DNA of 33,590 nt from an uncultured Eubacteriales bacterium. GTDB taxonomy: Bacteria > Bacillota > Clostridia > Oscillospirales > Oscillospiraceae. Shown piece after piece: positions 7,887 to 30,938 of the stretch (position 1 is its first letter; every line of letters starts with the position of its first letter). The notes under the pieces are model-generated. The model was not told where the DNA came from and did not search any database. It saw only the letters and a program-made list of their open reading frames with translations. The stretch spans positions 1 through 33,590 of the forward strand of contig CATJWG010000151.1 of NCBI GenBank assembly GCA_949744165.1, given 5' to 3'. The position numbers and the translations under genes are program-made.

Positions 7887-8043
7887 AATTTTTCTCCATA
7901 AAAATACATTTTTCGCCGTTCGGCAGAAATAAATTATACCACCAGCATTACATTTATTCACAGCAATGCTGAAAAGTTCAGTTTATTTAAGATTTTGCCT
8001 CAGTCTACCTCCCGTCTTATTTTTTGCCGATGACTGCAAACCG

Positions 8044-8108
8044 TCTCAACGGTGAAATCCGCGGGGGAGCGGACTGCTCCGCGCCCCCGCGGACCCTGCC
8101 TGTTGAGA
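8044..8108. repeat. Large GC-rich inverted-repeat element
   Basis: TCCGCGGGGGAGCGGA (8058-8073)/TCCGCGCCCCCGCGGA (8078-8093), 16 bp with one mismatch, nested in TCTCAAC (8044-8050)/GTTGAGA (8102-8108). Confidence 0.6.
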
Positions 8109-8305
8109 TAATAAAAGCGCGGCGCAGGAAGCTTTTCCTACACCGCGCATAAGCACACAGGCTCATCGCACGTTCCCCTTGAAAATTACGGGGGACGTGA
8201 TATAATGAGCTTGGCGCAATATTATTGCTGTGTGGGAGCCTCTATCTCCTGCATAGGGGCATGAGAGATTGCCGTCTCTCATGCCCTGCCTTTTATTATC
8301 CCGGC
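8108..8305 (-). ncRNA. Candidate ~198-nt ncRNA (minus strand)
   Basis: Promoter TTGCAT-17-TATAAT (8340-8312) and terminator GCGCGGTGTAGGAA...TTCCTGCGCCGCGC-TTTTATTAT (8148-8108), the latter including two G-U wobbles on this strand. No ORF. Confidence 0.45.
8213..8299 (+). ncRNA. Candidate ~87-nt ncRNA (plus strand), antisense to the one above
   Basis: Promoter TTGAAA (8179-8184)-16-TATAAT (8201-8206); terminator GGGCATGAGAGA/TCTCTCATGCCC followed by TTTTATTAT (8257-8299). Confidence 0.45.
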
Positions 8306-8505
8306 AAGGCCATTATATACTTTTCGACAGGCTAATGCAAGATTTATTTCCAATTATATCGTTTATCGGGGCCTTTTCCGGCGTGGGACTGGATGGCCCC
8401 GTTTATTTATGATTTAACAAGGAAAAACACGCGACAAATGGCGGGCAGTATGATATGATAATAAATATAGTCAGCATATAAAAACTCATAATGGAGGTTA
8501 AAGCG

Positions 8506-9978
8506 ATGGTTAAAGTCAAAGACCTGCGTACGGCGTTGGAGCGCCTGGCCGAAATACCGGGCCAGCTTGTGGAGACGAACGTCGAGGCTGACCCGCACGC
8601 CGAGATATCCGGCGTATACCGCTATGTCGGCGCGGGCGGCACCGTGATGCGCCCCACCAGGGAGGGACCCGCGATGATATTCAACAACGTCAAGGGGCAC
8701 CCCGACGCACGCGTGGCCATAGGCCTGCTCGCCAGCCGCCGCCGTGTGGGCTACCTGCTCGACGAGGCGCCCGAGAGACTGGGCTTCAAGCTCATGGAGG
8801 CCGTGTCAAACCCCATAGAGCCTGTGGAGATACCGCAGTCCGAAGCCAAGTGTCAGGAAATAGTGCATCTTTCCACCGACCCCGACTTTGACGTGCGCAA
8901 GCTTGTCCCCGCGCCGACGAACACCGAGGAGGACGCAGGTCCCTACATTACCATGGGCCTGTGCTACGCCACCGACCCCGAGACGGGCGAGAAGGACGTT
9001 ACCATTCACCGCCTCTGCCTTCAGGGAAAGGACATTATCTCCATGTACTTCGTTCCCGGCGGGCGGCACCTGGATATTTTCCGTGAAAAATACGCGAAAA
9101 TGGGAAAGCCCATGCCGATATCCGTCTCCATAGGCGTGGACCCCGCGATATGTATCGCCTCCTGCTTTGAGTCTCCAACCACTCCGCTGGGCTACAACGA
9201 GCTGGCCTGCGCCGGCGGCCTGCGCGGCGAGCCGGTGGAGCTGACGCGCTGCAAGACCATAGACGAGCTGTGCATAGCCAACGCCGAGTACGTCGTCGAG
9301 TGCGAGCTGGCACCGGGCGAATTTATCCGCGAGGACATAAACACGAACACGGGAAAAGCAATGCCGGAGTTTCCCGGCTACATCGGCGCGGCGCTGCCTG
9401 AGGTGCCGGTTTTGAAGGTCAAGGCTGTGACCACGCGCAAAAGCCCCATCATGCAGACAGTTATAGGCCCCAGCGAGGAGCATGTGAGCATGGCCGGACT
9501 GCCCACGGAGGCGAGCATCCTGCTCATGGAGCGCCGTGCGCTCAACGACTTCGTGCAGAACGTCTACTGCGCCCCCTTCGGCGGAGGCAAGTATGCGGCC
9601 GTGATACAGGTCAAAAAGTCCGCGCCCATTGACGAGGGCAAGCAGAGGCAGGCTGCGCTTCTGGCTTTCTCCGCCTTCCGCGAGCTCAAGCACGTATTTT
9701 TAGTGGACGAGGACGTGGATTTGTTCGATGTAAACGACGTTATCTGGGCCATGACCACGCGCTTTCAGGCAGACGTGGACCTGATACCCATCCCCGGCGT
9801 GCGCCTGCATCCACTCGAGCCGTCGAGCGCCCCCGCATATTCGCCGAGTATACGCCACCACGGCATCGCCTGCAAGGCTATCTTTGACTGCACCGTACCC
9901 TTTGAGCAGAAGGACCGCTTCAAGCGCTGTGTGTTCAAGGACCTTGACCCTGCCAAGTGGGTTCCCGAGCTGTTTTAA
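8506..9978 (+). CDS. UbiD family (prenyl-FMN dependent) decarboxylase
   Basis: UbiD-family protein (e.g. GLCYATDPETGEKDVTIHRLCLQGKD, ELACAGGLRGEPVELTRCKT, VNDVIWAMTTRFQADVDL). ATG 8506 after GGAGG. Confidence 0.93.
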   Translation: MVKVKDLRTALERLAEIPGQLVETNVEADPHAEISGVYRYVGAGGTVMRPTREGPAMIFNNVKGHPDARVAIGLLASRRRVGYLLDEAPERLGFKLMEAVSNPIEPVEIPQSEAKCQEIVHLSTDPDFDVRKLVPAPTNTEEDAGPYITMGLCYATDPETGEKDVTIHRLCLQGKDIISMYFVPGGRHLDIFREKYAKMGKPMPISVSIGVDPAICIASCFESPTTPLGYNELACAGGLRGEPVELTRCKTIDELCIANAEYVVECELAPGEFIREDINTNTGKAMPEFPGYIGAALPEVPVLKVKAVTTRKSPIMQTVIGPSEEHVSMAGLPTEASILLMERRALNDFVQNVYCAPFGGGKYAAVIQVKKSAPIDEGKQRQAALLAFSAFRELKHVFLVDEDVDLFDVNDVIWAMTTRFQADVDLIPIPGVRLHPLEPSSAPAYSPSIRHHGIACKAIFDCTVPFEQKDRFKRCVFKDLDPAKWVPELF

Positions 9979-11055: not shown

Positions 11056-11086
11056 AAAAGCCGCAGCTGGTATAGCTGCGGCTTTT
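11056..11086 (+). terminator. Bidirectional terminator
   Basis: AAAAGCCGCAGCTGGTATAGCTGCGGCTTTT. Confidence 0.85.
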
Positions 11087-11124
11087 CTCAGCGTGTCGAA
11101 CAGGCGGCACAGCCGCTTGTTCGA

Positions 11125-11295
11125 TTATTTTTTATGGCACTGTCCGCTCATGGCGCAGCTTGAGCAGCCGCAGCCGCAGGAGGACTTGCCCTGCTTTTTG
11201 TCCTTCACCAGAGAGCGCACTGCCAGCGCCGCGAGTATGATTACTACGGAGCACACGGCAATCGTGCCCCAATTGGCAGAAATCCATCCAAGCAT
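11125..11295 (-). CDS. FeoB-associated Cys-rich small membrane protein (56 aa, not in the supplied ORF track)
   Basis: Translated by hand: MLGWISANWGTIAVCSVVIILAALAVRSLVKDKKQGKSSCGCGCSSCAMSGQCHKK*; one TM plus CGCGCSSC...C, immediately downstream of feoB. Confidence 0.88.
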   Translation of the reverse strand: MLGWISANWGTIAVCSVVIILAALAVRSLVKDKKQGKSSCGCGCSSCAMSGQCHKK

Positions 11296-14540: not shown

Positions 14541-14927
14541 ATGAAAATTCAGAAATCCTCTGAGGACTATCTTGAAGCCATGCTCATGATGCAGGAAAAG
14601 CACGGCTTTATCCGCTCTACGGATGTGGCTGAGCACTTGGGCGTGACAAAACCGAGCGTCAGCTATGCCACGAAGCGGCTGCGTGAGGCGGGTTATATCA
14701 CCATGGACCGCGACGGCCTGATAACGCTTACCGGTTCCGGCATGGAGATAGCCCAACGCATGTACGACCGCCACAAGTTTCTCAGTCAGGCACTTATCTC
14801 CATCGGTGTGAGCGAGCGCACCGCGGTGGAGGACGCCTGCAAAATAGAGCACGACATAAGCCAGGAGACCTTTGACGCACTGCAAAGCATAGCAGAGCGC
14901 GAGCGGGAAAAGGGGCGCAGGCAATAA
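14541..14927 (+). CDS. DtxR/MntR family metal-dependent transcriptional regulator
   Basis: MKIQKSSEDYLEAMLMMQEKHGFIRSTDVAEHLGVTKPSVSYATKRLREAGYI...KIEHDISQETFDAL. Confidence 0.92.
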   Translation: MKIQKSSEDYLEAMLMMQEKHGFIRSTDVAEHLGVTKPSVSYATKRLREAGYITMDRDGLITLTGSGMEIAQRMYDRHKFLSQALISIGVSERTAVEDACKIEHDISQETFDALQSIAEREREKGRRQ

Positions 14928-14961
14928 AAAAGCCAGGCATTTGTAAATGCCTGGCTTTTTT
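14926..14961 (+). terminator. Bidirectional terminator after the DtxR-family gene
   Basis: AAAAAAGCCAGGCATTTGTAAATGCCTGGCTTTTTT. Confidence 0.9.
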
Positions 14962-14976
14962 CGTTCTAATATGCAC

Positions 14977-15004
14977 AAAAGCGGCCCTGCTTTCGCAGGG
15001 CCGC
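14977..15004 (-). terminator. Terminator of the TRAP operon
   Basis: GCGGCCCTGCTTTCGCAGGGCCGC with TTTT on the minus strand. Confidence 0.8.
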
Positions 15005-15050: not shown

Positions 15051-15584
15051 TCAGATCCAGTTCTTCTGAAGCTCCTCTGCCATTTCCTTATCGAACATTG
15101 CAACAAAGGACTTTAAAGTGTCCAGAAGGAGAAGAAGCGTCATAAGACCGAACGCAACAAGCTCAAAAACATAGAACGGCCAATGGGGAATCAGAAGAAC
15201 GCCTGTTGCCTCTCCGTTGCTGTACTTGGCAAGTATCTGGAGATAGACGGCATATGTCGCAATTCCCATAACCGCAGTGGAAAGAGCCGATGTCAGACCA
15301 AAGGCGATAAAACGTAACTTATCGGGGAACATCTTTATGAACATTACGACATGAATGTGTCCATGCTGCGTCTGCGTGTAAGCCCAAGATGAGAATACAA
15401 GCGTGGACAGAAGGCATGAGGTAACCTCATAAGCGCCCAGAATGCGTGTGTCGAGCAGATGGCTGCACAAAACGTCAGCCGTCATGATTAGCATCATAAT
15501 TACAACGGCAAGCATACTGAAATAACATACATAATAGCATACTTTGTCGGTAATTGTTGTATATCCATTCAGAAATCTCTTCAT
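15051..15584 (-). CDS. dctQ: TRAP transporter small permease (DctQ-like)
   Basis: ~177 aa, four TM segments; adjacent to DctP and DctM. Confidence 0.88.
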   Translation of the reverse strand: MKRFLNGYTTITDKVCYYVCYFSMLAVVIMMLIMTADVLCSHLLDTRILGAYEVTSCLLSTLVFSSWAYTQTQHGHIHVVMFIKMFPDKLRFIAFGLTSALSTAVMGIATYAVYLQILAKYSNGEATGVLLIPHWPFYVFELVAFGLMTLLLLLDTLKSFVAMFDKEMAEELQKNWI

Positions 15585-15651: not shown

Positions 15652-16833
15652 TCAGGCTTCCTTGTCCCAGTCAGTGTAGTTGAACGGGGTATCAAGGTCA
15701 TTCTCGTGATTGGGAGCAACCTCGGCGACTATCTGCATGCACTTGTCATAGATAGCCTGACCGTCAAGGCCCTTCTCATTGAGGTAGTTGATGTAATACT
15801 CATGCACGCTGTTGACAATCTCATCGGAGGTCATGTAGTCAAGAACTTCCTGAGAGGGCTCATAAACCTCAGCGCCGTTGTCAATCATCTTGTCGGCAAC
15901 CCAGAACTCGCAGGAATCCCAGTAGTAGCCAGCCATCTCGCTGAAGTAACCGCCGGCGTACTTGTCAACGATAGCCTTCAGGTCGTCGGGCAGAGCGTTA
16001 TACTTATCCTGGTTCATGAGAACGAAGCAAGAGCTGTAGCCGGGGTTGGCCTTCATGCAGTAGTCAATAACCTCATAGAGGCGGAAAGCGTCGATGTTGT
16101 GCCAGTCGTTGCAGATGGCGTTGATAACACCCTTTTCCATGGACTCATAGGTCTCGGAGGTGGCCATTGCAACCGAGGTTGCGCCCAGAGCGTTGAAGTA
16201 CATGGAGGGAATGGTGCCGGCAACGCGAACCTGCAGGCCCTTGAAGTCCTCGGGAGTTTCAACCTTCTTGCCGGTGGTGGAAATCGGGAAAGTAGCGGCG
16301 GACATCAGGCACAGGACCTTCCAGTCGTCAAACTCGGCCTTGCACTCGGGAATCTCATCATACATTCTTCTGAAAACTTCAGAGGCGCACTGTGCGCTGT
16401 TCATGCCGGTCTGGCACAGGTTGATGAACTCGGAGATGGGGAAACGTCCACCGTAGAAAGAGGTACAGGTCCGGCAAATGTCGGCGCTGCCGTCCTTAAC
16501 GGCGTCAAGGGTCTCAGTCGCACCGTACAGGGAGCCGCCGGGGTAGAATACGAACTTCATGCGGCCGCCGGACTCCTCTTCCATCATCTGGCAAATGGTC
16601 TCGACATAAGCTTCGCACATACTCTCACTGGTGTCGTGGTTGACAACGACGAACTCATAAACGGTGTCGTCTGCGGGAGCGGAGGCGTTGTTGTCCTTGT
16701 TGTCGGCAGGGGCATTGTTGTTATCAGCGGGGGTGTTGTTGTCAGCGGGGGCGTTGTTGTTGCCGTTGCCACAGCCGGCGCACAATGCAAAGAGCATTAC
16801 CAGCACCAGAACAACGGAGATTGCTTTCTTCAT
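15652..16833 (-). CDS. dctP: TRAP transporter substrate-binding lipoprotein (DctP-like)
   Basis: Lipobox LCAGCGNG; YPGGSLYGATETLDAVKDGSADI and VRVAGTIPSMYFNALGATSVAMATSETYESMEKGVINAICNDW are typical DctP motifs. Confidence 0.93.
   Translation of the reverse strand: MKKAISVVLVLVMLFALCAGCGNGNNNAPADNNTPADNNNAPADNKDNNASAPADDTVYEFVVVNHDTSESMCEAYVETICQMMEEESGGRMKFVFYPGGSLYGATETLDAVKDGSADICRTCTSFYGGRFPISEFINLCQTGMNSAQCASEVFRRMYDEIPECKAEFDDWKVLCLMSAATFPISTTGKKVETPEDFKGLQVRVAGTIPSMYFNALGATSVAMATSETYESMEKGVINAICNDWHNIDAFRLYEVIDYCMKANPGYSSCFVLMNQDKYNALPDDLKAIVDKYAGGYFSEMAGYYWDSCEFWVADKMIDNGAEVYEPSQEVLDYMTSDEIVNSVHEYYINYLNEKGLDGQAIYDKCMQIVAEVAPNHENDLDTPFNYTDWDKEA
16698..16764 (-). repeat. Short tandem repeat coding the Asn/Ala/Pro/Asp linker of DctP
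   Basis: Degenerate 18-21 bp units ttgttgt(t)(c/a)tcagcgggggYg encode NNxPAD repeats. Confidence 0.7.
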
Positions 16834-16910: not shown

Positions 16911-18227
16911 TCAGCCCATGGTGGTGTAGCCGAGCACGGACGGCAGGAACAGCGCTATCTGAGGAAGTATGCAGATGATGAACACAGCCACAAACATACC
17001 AACGACCATGGGAGCGACGCCCTTGAAAATTTTCTGCAGCGGCACATCCTTGGCCACGCCGGCGACGATATACACGTTCATACCGACAGGGGGTGTGATA
17101 AGTCCCATCTCCATGACCATTATCATGATAACTCCGTACCAGATTGCGTTGAATCCGATGGCTTTCATTATGGGCAGGAATATGGGAACGGTCAGCATGA
17201 CCATTGCCAGAGAGTCCATAAAGCAACCCATGATGGCGTAGATGATAAGGATAACGATAAGAATGATATATTTGCTGACGTCCAGACTGGTAACAAAGTT
17301 CGCCAGAATGGTCGGAAGCTGGGTGATAGCAAGGAATGAGCCAAAAACATAAGCGCCGATAAGTATAAGGAATATCATACCGCTGGTCTTAACTGTTTCT
17401 CTCAGGGAATCCATGAAGATTTTCATGGTAAAGCGCCTGCGGCCGATGAGGTAGAGCAAGCTCAGGAAAGCGCCTATTGCGGACGCCTCGTTTGCTGTGA
17501 ACCAACCCATAAAGATACCACCGACGACTATGACAAACAGCACTATCATAGCAACGCCGCCCTTTAGGGAGATGAGCTTCTCTTTAGCGGTGAAATGTAA
17601 TTTGCCGGGTGCAAGGTTGGGATTCTTACGCACCATTATCATTATAGCGGCTATGTAGCAGATGGCCAGGACAACGCCGGGAAGAATGCCGGCAGCAAAC
17701 AGACCTCCTATGGACTCGCCGGTTATAATACCGAAGATAATGAAACCGGTGGACGGCGGAATGAGTATACCCAAAGTGCCGCCGGCGGCTATGGAGCCGC
17801 AGGAGAGGCTGTCGTCATAGCCGTGCTTACGCATCTCAGGCAGAGCGACAACGCCCATGGTGGCCGCAGTGGCCGCGGTGGAGCCGCAGATTGCCGAGAA
17901 GCAGGCGCACGCTGCAACGGTTGCGATTGCAAGGCCGCCCTTCAGGCCGCCGAGAATCTTATGTGCAAAATCGAACAAATCAGACGACATTCCTGAATAG
18001 AAACACAACTGCCCCATCAGGACAAATAGTGGTATGACCGTAAATGAATATGTGGTAGCCTGCGTGTATGGAATTTGCTTTAGCAGTGCAAGAGCCGGGG
18101 AGAAGCCGCGGACATAGGCGTACCCGAAGAAGCCCACAGCCATCATGCAGATACCGATGTTCATTCCCATTATAAGAAGAACGAGAAGGATAACAACTCC
18201 GATAAGTGCAACAGTTAGATTGGACAT
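16911..18227 (-). CDS. dctM: TRAP transporter large permease (DctM-like)
   Basis: AICGSTAATAATMGVVALPEMRKHGYDDSLSCGSIAAGGTLGILIPPSTGFIIFGIITGESIGGLFAAGILPG, classic DctM. Confidence 0.95.
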   Translation of the reverse strand: MSNLTVALIGVVILLVLLIMGMNIGICMMAVGFFGYAYVRGFSPALALLKQIPYTQATTYSFTVIPLFVLMGQLCFYSGMSSDLFDFAHKILGGLKGGLAIATVAACACFSAICGSTAATAATMGVVALPEMRKHGYDDSLSCGSIAAGGTLGILIPPSTGFIIFGIITGESIGGLFAAGILPGVVLAICYIAAIMIMVRKNPNLAPGKLHFTAKEKLISLKGGVAMIVLFVIVVGGIFMGWFTANEASAIGAFLSLLYLIGRRRFTMKIFMDSLRETVKTSGMIFLILIGAYVFGSFLAITQLPTILANFVTSLDVSKYIILIVILIIYAIMGCFMDSLAMVMLTVPIFLPIMKAIGFNAIWYGVIMIMVMEMGLITPPVGMNVYIVAGVAKDVPLQKIFKGVAPMVVGMFVAVFIICILPQIALFLPSVLGYTTMG

Positions 18228-18258
18228 TTTGCCTTTCCTCCATCTCTGATTTTAGGTG

Positions 18259-18371
18259 GGGCGCCATATCGCAGGTAGGCGAGCCGTTCTGAGGCCCGCA
18301 AGTATCTTTCATGTCCGCTCATAGCGGACATGCGGGCATAATTTATGCCCGCGCATCTTGCGATACGCGCC
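18259..18371 (-). ncRNA. Candidate four-way-junction cis-acting RNA upstream of dctM
   Basis: P1 GGCGC.G.TATCGCA/TGCGATA.TG.GCGCC; hairpins CGGGCATAAATTATGCCCG and CATGTCCGCTATGAGCGGACATG; third hairpin CGGGCC-tcagaac-GGCTCG, whose G-U pair favours the minus strand. Confidence 0.5.
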
Positions 18372-18408
18372 TATACATTTTTCTGTCGGCTGAATGCCGG
18401 AGCGGACC

Positions 18409-19170
18409 TTACTTCTTTATGTAGAAGTCCGGCGAGAGCTCCTGCCAGCGTGCCATCCTGGCCGCCAGCTCAGCCTTGCTCTGCTCATCCTCCTTCATGG
18501 CTATGAGCTCCCACGGCATCTCTTCCAGCGCCGTGGTTACCTCGCCCAATTTTTGATAGGGAATCGCGATTATATGCAGCCCCGCCGGATAAATTTTGCG
18601 GCGCTTGAGCCCGTGGTGCAGTCCGGTGATGCAGAAGTTCACCTTACCGCTCAGATAGGGATAAACATAGACCCACGCGCAGCTCATAACGCATGAGGAT
18701 TTGCTCTCCCAAAGGTCTCCCGATATGTAGCTCGTCGCCCGCATGAGAATGTCCGCCTGTTTGTTCTCCGCCACGCACACCACCAGATCGGGGTCAAACG
18801 TGCAGCTCGAGACTGGGCAGAACTCAACGAAATTGACGCTTCCGGGAACAAGCGTGGGGTAGGTGTTGTGAAGTCTGGCGTTAGGGGCAGCGGTTTTGTA
18901 CACCCCAAAATCGACTCCCGCTATTCCGCTGGCAGCAAGCGGAGGCTTCGGGTCCATGCCGAGGGCCACCTTTCCGAAGCAGTCGTCATCCGCCTTCGTG
19001 GTGAAAAAGTGTTTCCCAGTCGTCTGCGCCTTCTTGAGGTACTGACAGAAAGACAGCTGCTCATCCGTGTGCTCAACCCCATCCGGCTGAGCATAGTGGA
19101 ACTTTATTGCAACCGCTGGGTACGGCATTTCCAGCTTTTCAAAATTTTTCTTTGCGGCTTCAGAGAGCAT
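18409..19170 (-). CDS. DUF169 family protein
   Basis: PAVAIKF...CQYLKKAQTTGKHFFTTKADDDCFGKVALGMDPKPP...; ATG at 19170 preferred because of the upstream GAGGTG. Confidence 0.8.
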   Translation of the reverse strand: MLSEAAKKNFEKLEMPYPAVAIKFHYAQPDGVEHTDEQLSFCQYLKKAQTTGKHFFTTKADDDCFGKVALGMDPKPPLAASGIAGVDFGVYKTAAPNARLHNTYPTLVPGSVNFVEFCPVSSCTFDPDLVVCVAENKQADILMRATSYISGDLWESKSSCVMSCAWVYVYPYLSGKVNFCITGLHHGLKRRKIYPAGLHIIAIPYQKLGEVTTALEEMPWELIAMKEDEQSKAELAARMARWQELSPDFYIKK

Positions 19171-19252
19171 GATTATCACCTCATAAATTAAGCGGAAAAA
19201 AGTCCCACAACGCAGCTATATGAACATTTACATATCAACTGCCGGTTGTGAG

Positions 19253-19285: not shown

Positions 19286-19314
19286 ATTATAGCGTTATAA
19301 ATGTTCTTTGTCAA
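19286..19314 (-). promoter_or_regulatory. Perfect consensus promoter TTGACA-17-TATAAT for the DUF169/TRAP transcript
   Basis: Minus-strand TTGACA 19314-19309, 17-bp spacer, TATAAT 19291-19286. Confidence 0.8.
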
Positions 19315-19447: not shown

Positions 19448-19480
19448 TCAAAAAAACCGCACGGCATATGCCGTGCGGTT
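19448..19480 (-). terminator. Terminator of the CoA-transferase gene
   Basis: AACCGCACGGCATATGCCGTGCGGTT perfect palindrome followed by a T run on the minus strand. Confidence 0.88.
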
Positions 19481-29480: not shown

Positions 29481-30733
29481 GCTTTTACATTCCCGCGGCC
29501 ATAGCCTGCGTGCTGCTGTCGGCTTTCTTCTCCGCGTCGGAGATGAGCCTGTCCTCGGCCAACCGCCTGCGTCTTGAAAACATGCGCGACACCGGCTCCA
29601 AGCCCGCCGGGCTTGCTGTCGAACTCATCGAGAGCTTTGACAATACGCTCTCCACCATACTAATAGGCAACAACTTCGTAAACATTGCGCTCTCATCGCT
29701 TGCCTCTCTCATTGCGATAACAGCCTTTGGAGAGGAGTACACTTGGCTGGCCACCGTCATTGTGACGGTAACGGTTATTATCTTCGGCGAGACGATGCCG
29801 AAGATTGTAGCGAAAAAGAACGCAACTCGCATGTCCTCGGCGCTGGCCCCGTTCGTGCGGGCGCTGTCCGTGCTGCTGTTCCCCCTTGTGTGGGTGGTGG
29901 TGAAGCTTGTTCACCTGATAACCGCTCCGCTTAAGGGCGAGAGCAAAGGGGGCGAGGACGCCGCAGTTGAGGAGCTCCAGTCCATAATCGAGACGGCCGA
30001 GGACGAGGACGTTATAGATGAGGAGCGCAGTGAACTTTTACAGGCCGCGCTGGACTTCAACGAGGTCTCCGCGTCTGAGGTGATGACCGCACGCGTGGAT
30101 ATGCTCGCCATCGACATTGACGACGACTGGGACGAGATTGTACGCACCATCGAGGGCTCGACCTTTTCGCGCATCCCCGTTTATGAGGACAGCGTGGACA
30201 ACATCATAGGCATACTCTACCTCAATCACTTTTTCAAAGCCATGCTCGACGGCAGCAGCATGGACCTGCGCCGCCAGCTCATGAAGCCCTGCTTTATCTA
30301 CAAAACCGTAAAGCTTCCTTCGGTGCTTGAGGAGCTGCGCCGGGCAAAAATGCATCTTGCGGTGGTCACGGACGAGTACGGCGGCACGCTGGGGCTTATA
30401 AGCATGGAGGACGTTCTTGAGCAGCTCGTCGGCGAGATATGGGACGAGACGGACGTGATAGAGGACGAAGTCGTCCAGCGAGACAGCGGCGAGCTTGAGC
30501 TCGACGGCGACATGGTAATGGGCGACTTTCTCGAGCTCGTCGGCCGTGACGAGGACAGCTTTGAAACCGACAGCGCCACCGTCGGCGGCTGGACACTGGA
30601 AATCTTCGGCTCCTTCCCCGTCGATGGCGACAGCTTCATCTTTGAAAATCTTGAGGTCACAGTCCTCAAAATGGACGGCCTGCGTGTCGAAAAGGTACTG
30701 GTGAGGGTTTTGCCGGAGGATGATACGAAATAA
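29477..30733 (+). CDS. CNNM (DUF21)/CBS-pair/CorC_HlyC domain protein 2
   Basis: LLSAFFSASEMSLSSANRLRLE, MTARVDMLAIDIDDDWDEIV, SRIPVYEDSVDNIIGIL; ATGA overlap with the preceding gene. Confidence 0.94.
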   Translation: MSFYIPAAIACVLLSAFFSASEMSLSSANRLRLENMRDTGSKPAGLAVELIESFDNTLSTILIGNNFVNIALSSLASLIAITAFGEEYTWLATVIVTVTVIIFGETMPKIVAKKNATRMSSALAPFVRALSVLLFPLVWVVVKLVHLITAPLKGESKGGEDAAVEELQSIIETAEDEDVIDEERSELLQAALDFNEVSASEVMTARVDMLAIDIDDDWDEIVRTIEGSTFSRIPVYEDSVDNIIGILYLNHFFKAMLDGSSMDLRRQLMKPCFIYKTVKLPSVLEELRRAKMHLAVVTDEYGGTLGLISMEDVLEQLVGEIWDETDVIEDEVVQRDSGELELDGDMVMGDFLELVGRDEDSFETDSATVGGWTLEIFGSFPVDGDSFIFENLEVTVLKMDGLRVEKVLVRVLPEDDTK

Positions 30734-30815
30734 GACATCACATATTTCGCTGCGTGTACGCTGCGAATAAAATAAAATTGTTTTTTGTCAGGACATGCAC
30801 CTGGCAAAAAATACT

Positions 30816-30938
30816 CTGCGCGGAGCAACCATCGAACCATCCGAAGGGCGGTGAGGCGCAGTGTGCGGCAAGGTTTTCCCGAAAAAGATGCTCCGCCTCT
30901 TTTTCGAAGCTCTAAAGCGGCCCTTAAAAGGGCCGCTT
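30816..30938 (+). ncRNA. Candidate cis-regulatory RNA upstream of addB
   Basis: CTGCGC(30816-30821)/GCGCAG(30856-30861) stem; hairpin CGAAAAAGA/TCTTTTTCG (30880-30906), whose loop TGCTCCGC complements GCGGAGCA at 30820-30827; terminator-like hairpin 30915-30938. Confidence 0.4.
30915..30938 (+). terminator. Terminator-like hairpin 25 nt before the addB ATG
   Basis: AAGCGGCCC-TTAAAA-GGGCCGCTT. Confidence 0.6.

Follow-up and report, generated by a model that had tools for sequence, protein, structure and literature searches.

Intergenic stem-loops, mostly without U-runs, have been reported 3' of highly transcribed operon genes in Clostridium cellulolyticum, and a correlation has been found between how stable they are and the ratio of the transcripts on either side (PMC4423207). 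The stem-loops of clostridial operons have been described as cleavage signals that also protect ends (PMC10311766). In R. cellulolyticum, low-U stem-loops located downstream of ABC-importer binding-protein genes have been shown to cause partial termination and to decrease downstream transcription (PMC9045158). Here we describe a folded element of 113 nt in a stretch of DNA of 33,590 nt (the window) from an uncultured Eubacteriales bacterium of the Oscillospiraceae, where it lies between a gene of the DUF169 family and dctM, the gene for the large permease of a TRAP transporter. Similar to the SRPS (selective RNA processing and stabilisation) stem-loops of the cip-cel operon of Clostridium (Ruminiclostridium) cellulolyticum, which are strong, mostly free of U-runs, intergenic and placed at the 3' end of the upstream gene (PMC4423207, PMC10311766), the element is a strong intergenic structure. 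Unlike these single stem-loops of about -14 to -24, it is a predicted four-way junction of -61 kcal/mol in another operon. Like the internal stem-loops of ABC-importer operons in cellulolytic clostridia (PMC9045158), the element appears to lie inside a transporter operon, before a permease gene, and it is low in U; unlike them, it follows DUF169 and not a binding-protein gene, and has no U-tract at all. We give a probability of roughly one half to the reading that the element is an intercistronic structure with a putative stabilising or processing function in the mRNA of a DUF169-dctM-dctP-dctQ operon.

The minus strand of window positions 18259-18371 is GGCGCGTATCGCAAGATGCGCGGGCATAAATTATGCCCGCATGTCCGCTATGAGCGGACATGAAAGATACTTGCGGGCCTCAGAACGGCTCGCCTACCTGCGATATGGCGCCC, and the parts of its fold are collected in Table 1 together with the neighbouring genes and signals. 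The MFE and centroid structures of this strand agree on one four-way junction, and both recovered the closing stem and the hairpins that an earlier, sequence-only reading of the window had described. The closing stem (GGCGC/GCGCC plus GTATCGCA/TGCGATAT) comprises 13 pairs and a single bulged base, and the three internal hairpins have 9, 9, and 7 pairs, with 7 in the third (P4). The outer arms of the element are near-perfect inverted repeats. The energy of the element was -61.4 kcal/mol compared to -38.4 +/- 3.7 (sd) for dinucleotide shuffles (z -6.3), and none of 200 shuffles was equally stable. The bases next to the closing stem are CCCACCTAAAATC, with no U-tract, and the element has in this the trait of the SRPS stem-loops, a stable structure mostly without a U-run after it. 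Folding of the whole DUF169-dctM gap of 181 nt, that is, in native context, gave the same element pairs with probabilities mostly of 0.8-1.0. An alternative in which the 5' arm of P4 pairs with the 3' arm of P2 lies 4.9 kcal/mol above the MFE, and some pairing of the Shine-Dalgarno region was seen in a long fold of the element context. The 3' edge of the element (18259/18260) is about 32 nt upstream of the dctM ATG at 18227; this distance and the missing U-tract both hold as they had been read from the letters. The folded structure is real, and is confirmed as the four-way junction described.

The rarity of such a junction was assessed in 391 kb of the same genome (7,788 tiles, both strands). 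No other junction among the matches listed combined a closing helix of 8 bp or longer with exactly three branches that were all clean hairpins of 6 bp or more, a count that is no more than indicative of rarity. A looser count of multibranch folds was too permissive to be informative and was rejected as a measure of rarity. The plus strand is nearly as stable as the minus strand, with -55.8 vs. -57.3 in one 110-nt tile folded on either strand, and it is likewise matched by the element's covariance model. Because the fold is near-symmetrical between the strands, the single G-U pair says little about the strand, and it is too weak an argument for RNA function in the operon direction, for which the sequence-only reading had used it.

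The genes and signals around the element suggest the direction and extent of transcription. A scan of the DUF169-dctM gap found no promoter-like or terminator-like site. Since a perfect promoter lies before DUF169, none lies in the gap, and terminators follow dctQ, transcription should cross the element. The simplest transcription unit is apparently DUF169-dctM-dctP-dctQ, in which the element would separate the first gene from the second; co-transcription is predicted from this layout. The listed open reading frame of DUF169 begins at 19179 (GTG), and the ATG at 19170 is favoured by comparison with loci L063 and L064. DUF169 (COG2043) genes adjoin TRAP genes in two genomes, at 18409-19179 of the window and at 1432-2268 of locus L062, and this adjacency is a hint of a functional link for the uncharacterised DUF169 family. 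Elsewhere in the window, a gene for a UbiD-family decarboxylase is present at 8491-9978 (plus strand; best NCBIfam model VdcC, below cut-off), and a very stable hairpin region is found upstream of it at about 8041-8110.

Table 1. Positions in the window of the element, its parts, and the genes and signals of the apparent operon.
Feature	Position	Strand	Evidence or remark
Terminator of the CoA-transferase gene upstream, setting the operon apart	19455..19480	-	13-bp perfect stem, then T run
Consensus promoter TTGACA-17-TATAAT upstream of DUF169	19286..19314	-	sigma-70, 12/12 matches
DUF169 gene, first of the putative operon	18409..19170	-	PF02596, E 6.7e-26; likely ATG 19170
Whole four-way-junction element, 113 nt	18259..18371	-	DUF169-dctM gap 18228-18408; MFE -61.4, z -6.3
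Closing stem, 5' arm GGCGCGTATCGCA	18359..18371	-	partner is 18260-18273
Hairpin P2, GCGGGCATA/TATGCCCGC	18332..18352	-	fold
Hairpin P3, ATGTCCGCT/AGCGGACAT	18311..18331	-	fold
Hairpin P4, GCGGGCC/GGCTCGC, one G-U	18279..18299	-	fold
Closing stem, 3' arm TGCGATATGGCGCC, one bulged base	18260..18273	-	fold
dctM, TRAP large permease	16911..18227	-	PF06808, E 3.9e-100
dctP, TRAP solute-binding protein	15652..16833	-	PF03480, E 3.6e-45
dctQ, TRAP small permease	15051..15584	-	PF04290, E 1.9e-15
Two terminator-like hairpins with T-tracts, after dctQ	14926..15004	-	terminator scan

According to the proposed mechanism, a transcript starting at the promoter before DUF169 would read through the element, and the folded block, being without a U-tract, would stop 3'-to-5' decay and/or mark a cleavage site. 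The DUF169 part and the dctMPQ part of the transcript would then differ in stability and abundance, a mode of action like that of the SRPS stem-loops of clostridial operons. The reading rests directly on the observed fold, its position, the layout of promoter and terminators, the single copy of the element, its absence at orthologous dctM genes, and the presence of strong stem-loops at this position in other TRAP operons; from these we infer co-transcription, processing, and an effect on transcript levels. Stem-loops before dctM were found at all eight junctions examined in the family that have dctM behind dctP in the same orientation (L024, L042, L044, L046, L047, L048, L050, and L051), which include homologous operons and are not eight independent events. 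Their energies range from -25.7 to -36.7 kcal/mol, their 3' ends lie 9-38 nt upstream of dctM, and their sequences are unrelated. Two or fewer T were present in the next 8 bases in five of these junctions, four in L047, and five in L024 and L048. The eight junctions resemble the internal stem-loops of ABC-importer operons (PMC9045158). As a control, 68 co-directional gaps of 50-200 nt, some of them at operon ends, were folded in 391 kb of the source genome; 16 of the 68 (24%) reached -25 kcal/mol and 27 reached -20 kcal/mol, with these gaps, like the U-tract counts, based on simple ORF calling. Strong hairpins are common, not universal, in the gaps of this genome. The element is the same kind of thing in the same place as the eight junction stem-loops, though it comes after DUF169 and takes the shape of a three-hairpin junction. 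The layout of promoter and terminators, and the stem-loops, unrelated in sequence, that other TRAP operons of the family have in this position, speak for one half of what the sequence-only reading had offered, a processing element acting in the operon direction.

Searches for relatives of the element gave a uniform result. The source genome (G000) is a 2.35-Mb draft assembly (296 contigs, completeness 87.5%), and the element is a single copy in it; no second copy was found there, and other matches were of 14-30 nt with E values of 0.06 or more. No DNA match to the element was detected in 60 relatives or in phages, plasmids, and viral contigs. A search of 401 family genomes yielded no homologue by DNA, and the short matches obtained (19-55 nt, E 0.004-0.009) are about what chance would give for that many genomes. 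A covariance model made of the single sequence and its own structure found only the element itself in 301 family genomes. With no conservation of sequence or structure wherever it was searched, selection on the fold is not demonstrable. The sequence-only reading had named conservation as a point on which it could fail; the lack of it speaks against a conserved regulatory RNA or riboswitch and leaves a simple structure for processing or stability unaffected. The dctM genes orthologous to that of the window, with 65-82% identity (L013-L023, L034, and L037), head a dctM-dctP-dctQ operon where downstream DNA is present. Their upstream regions had been proposed as the place to look for the element. 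None that could be read contains it; at L017 and L019 the upstream stretch is short or trimmed. No consistent 5'-UTR hairpin was found at orthologous dctM genes with their own upstream region (z -2.2 to +1.2), and in L013, L014, L015, and similar loci a divergent gene, probably for a LysR-type regulator, lies before dctM. Homologues of DUF169 (61-68% identity) have no dctM behind them, and one follows a TRAP dctP (L062). As orthologous dctM genes lack the element and DUF169 homologues lack dctM, the DUF169-dctM junction is lineage-specific among the genomes seen.

A lineage-specific junction, the orthologous dctM genes (65-82% identity) having an upstream region of their own that lacks the element, is also what would be expected if the element were a palindromic insertion, a MITE- or REP-like remnant with hardly any function or none that stayed where dctMPQ came to follow DUF169. 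The genome is rich in other palindromic repeats, the near-perfect inverted repeats of the outer arms fit such an origin, and like REP/BIME and MITE palindromes the element is extragenic and palindromic with several hairpins. However, those families are defined by repetition, whereas the element occurs once in the genome and the family searches found nothing related to it, no flanking direct repeat or target-site duplication is visible on reading its flanks, and a profile of the abundant repeat of about 190 nt, built within the genus, has no match at the element. We regard such an insertion as possible but unlikely.

The repeat of about 190 nt had come into view because a hairpin match of 19 nt in L060, together with an GCCCGCAAGT-N8-hairpin in common, pointed to a repeat family for the element. 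Following the 19-nt hairpin brought up intergenic arrays of other genera first, and afterwards an abundant repeat of the window's own genus. An early test looked favourable to membership, with one of 200 structure-preserving randomisations as good, but its loci had been picked for that hairpin. A profile of 27 repeat copies from the genus, none picked for the 19-nt hairpin, gave no match at 18200-18450, compared to E 4e-41 at 30730-30918. Membership of the element in the repeat was therefore rejected, since a profile free of hairpin-selected copies misses it. The repeat itself consists of multiple hairpins, and a full intergenic copy is present at 30737-30918 of the window (plus strand; nhmmer E 2.7e-25, genus profile E 4e-41). 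In 391 kb of the source genome, 17 near-full-length copies occur alongside several partial ones; extrapolation gives roughly 100 copies per genome, which may be an overestimate because some of the contigs sampled had been known beforehand to contain the repeat. The repeat is also present in genomes G001, G002, G380, G416, and G347, with many copies in other Oscillospiraceae-type genera, and has no match in Rfam. Compensatory changes, on both sides with pairing kept, were found in 11 of 25 consensus pairs among 12 aligned copies. The third hairpin is the most variable part, and copies at L103 and L114 carry an extra hairpin module beside it. At L079, L106, and L112, similar terminator-like hairpins lie on both sides of the repeat copy, as if the repeat had inserted into or beside a terminator that was duplicated. 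A partial match to the last hairpin of the repeat, on both strands, at 11086-11132 of the window is likely a shared terminator-like hairpin. Though unrelated to the element, the repeat may merit its own study.

Improbable, in our judgement, is a partial internal terminator or attenuator, either intrinsic without a U-tract or linked to Rho, that would lower dctMPQ relative to DUF169. Low-U internal stem-loops at a comparable position do cut downstream transcription in R. cellulolyticum (PMC9045158), but CCCACCTAAAATC after the closing stem contains no U-tract, and the scan detected no terminator-like site in the gap. Very improbable is an assembly artefact, a chimeric join of the draft by which DUF169 came to stand beside dctM. 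The contig comes from a fragmented draft (296 contigs), and DUF169 stands directly before dctM in no other genome examined. Against such a join, the structure is a single copy, which makes a repeat-mediated join unlikely, the GC content is even across the junction, the segment AGAGATGGAGG of the dctM ribosome site recurs in the orthologues L018 and L020, and DUF169 adjoins a TRAP dctP in L062 as well.

The other half of the sequence-only reading, metabolite sensing, is not supported, and we give very little probability to a riboswitch or another RNA that would bind the substrate of the TRAP transporter. As in multi-branch riboswitches, a multi-hairpin junction stands upstream of a transporter gene, here that of the permease, and the Shine-Dalgarno pairing in the long fold and the alternative pairing at 4.9 kcal/mol could suit a switch. 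Unlike those riboswitches, the element lacks a conserved core, neither DNA nor covariance-model searches gave a homologue, and its position is internal to the operon; the orthologous transporters are without it. The Rfam scan that the sequence-only reading had suggested as a check returned no relevant match at gathering or permissive thresholds (best E 1.8 in the permissive scan), and neither a terminator nor a clean sequestration of the ribosome site provides an expression platform. It is also very improbable that the element is a lineage-restricted four-way-junction RNA of a class not yet described, binding a ligand or protein and tuning the DUF169-TRAP operon.

The element by itself is of modest interest. 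If the reading as an intercistronic stabilising or processing structure is true, operon-internal control by stem-loops, which is known for clostridial cellulosome and ABC-importer operons, would reach the TRAP transporters of Oscillospiraceae-type bacteria, and the element would be a case where position and stability are kept, and not sequence.
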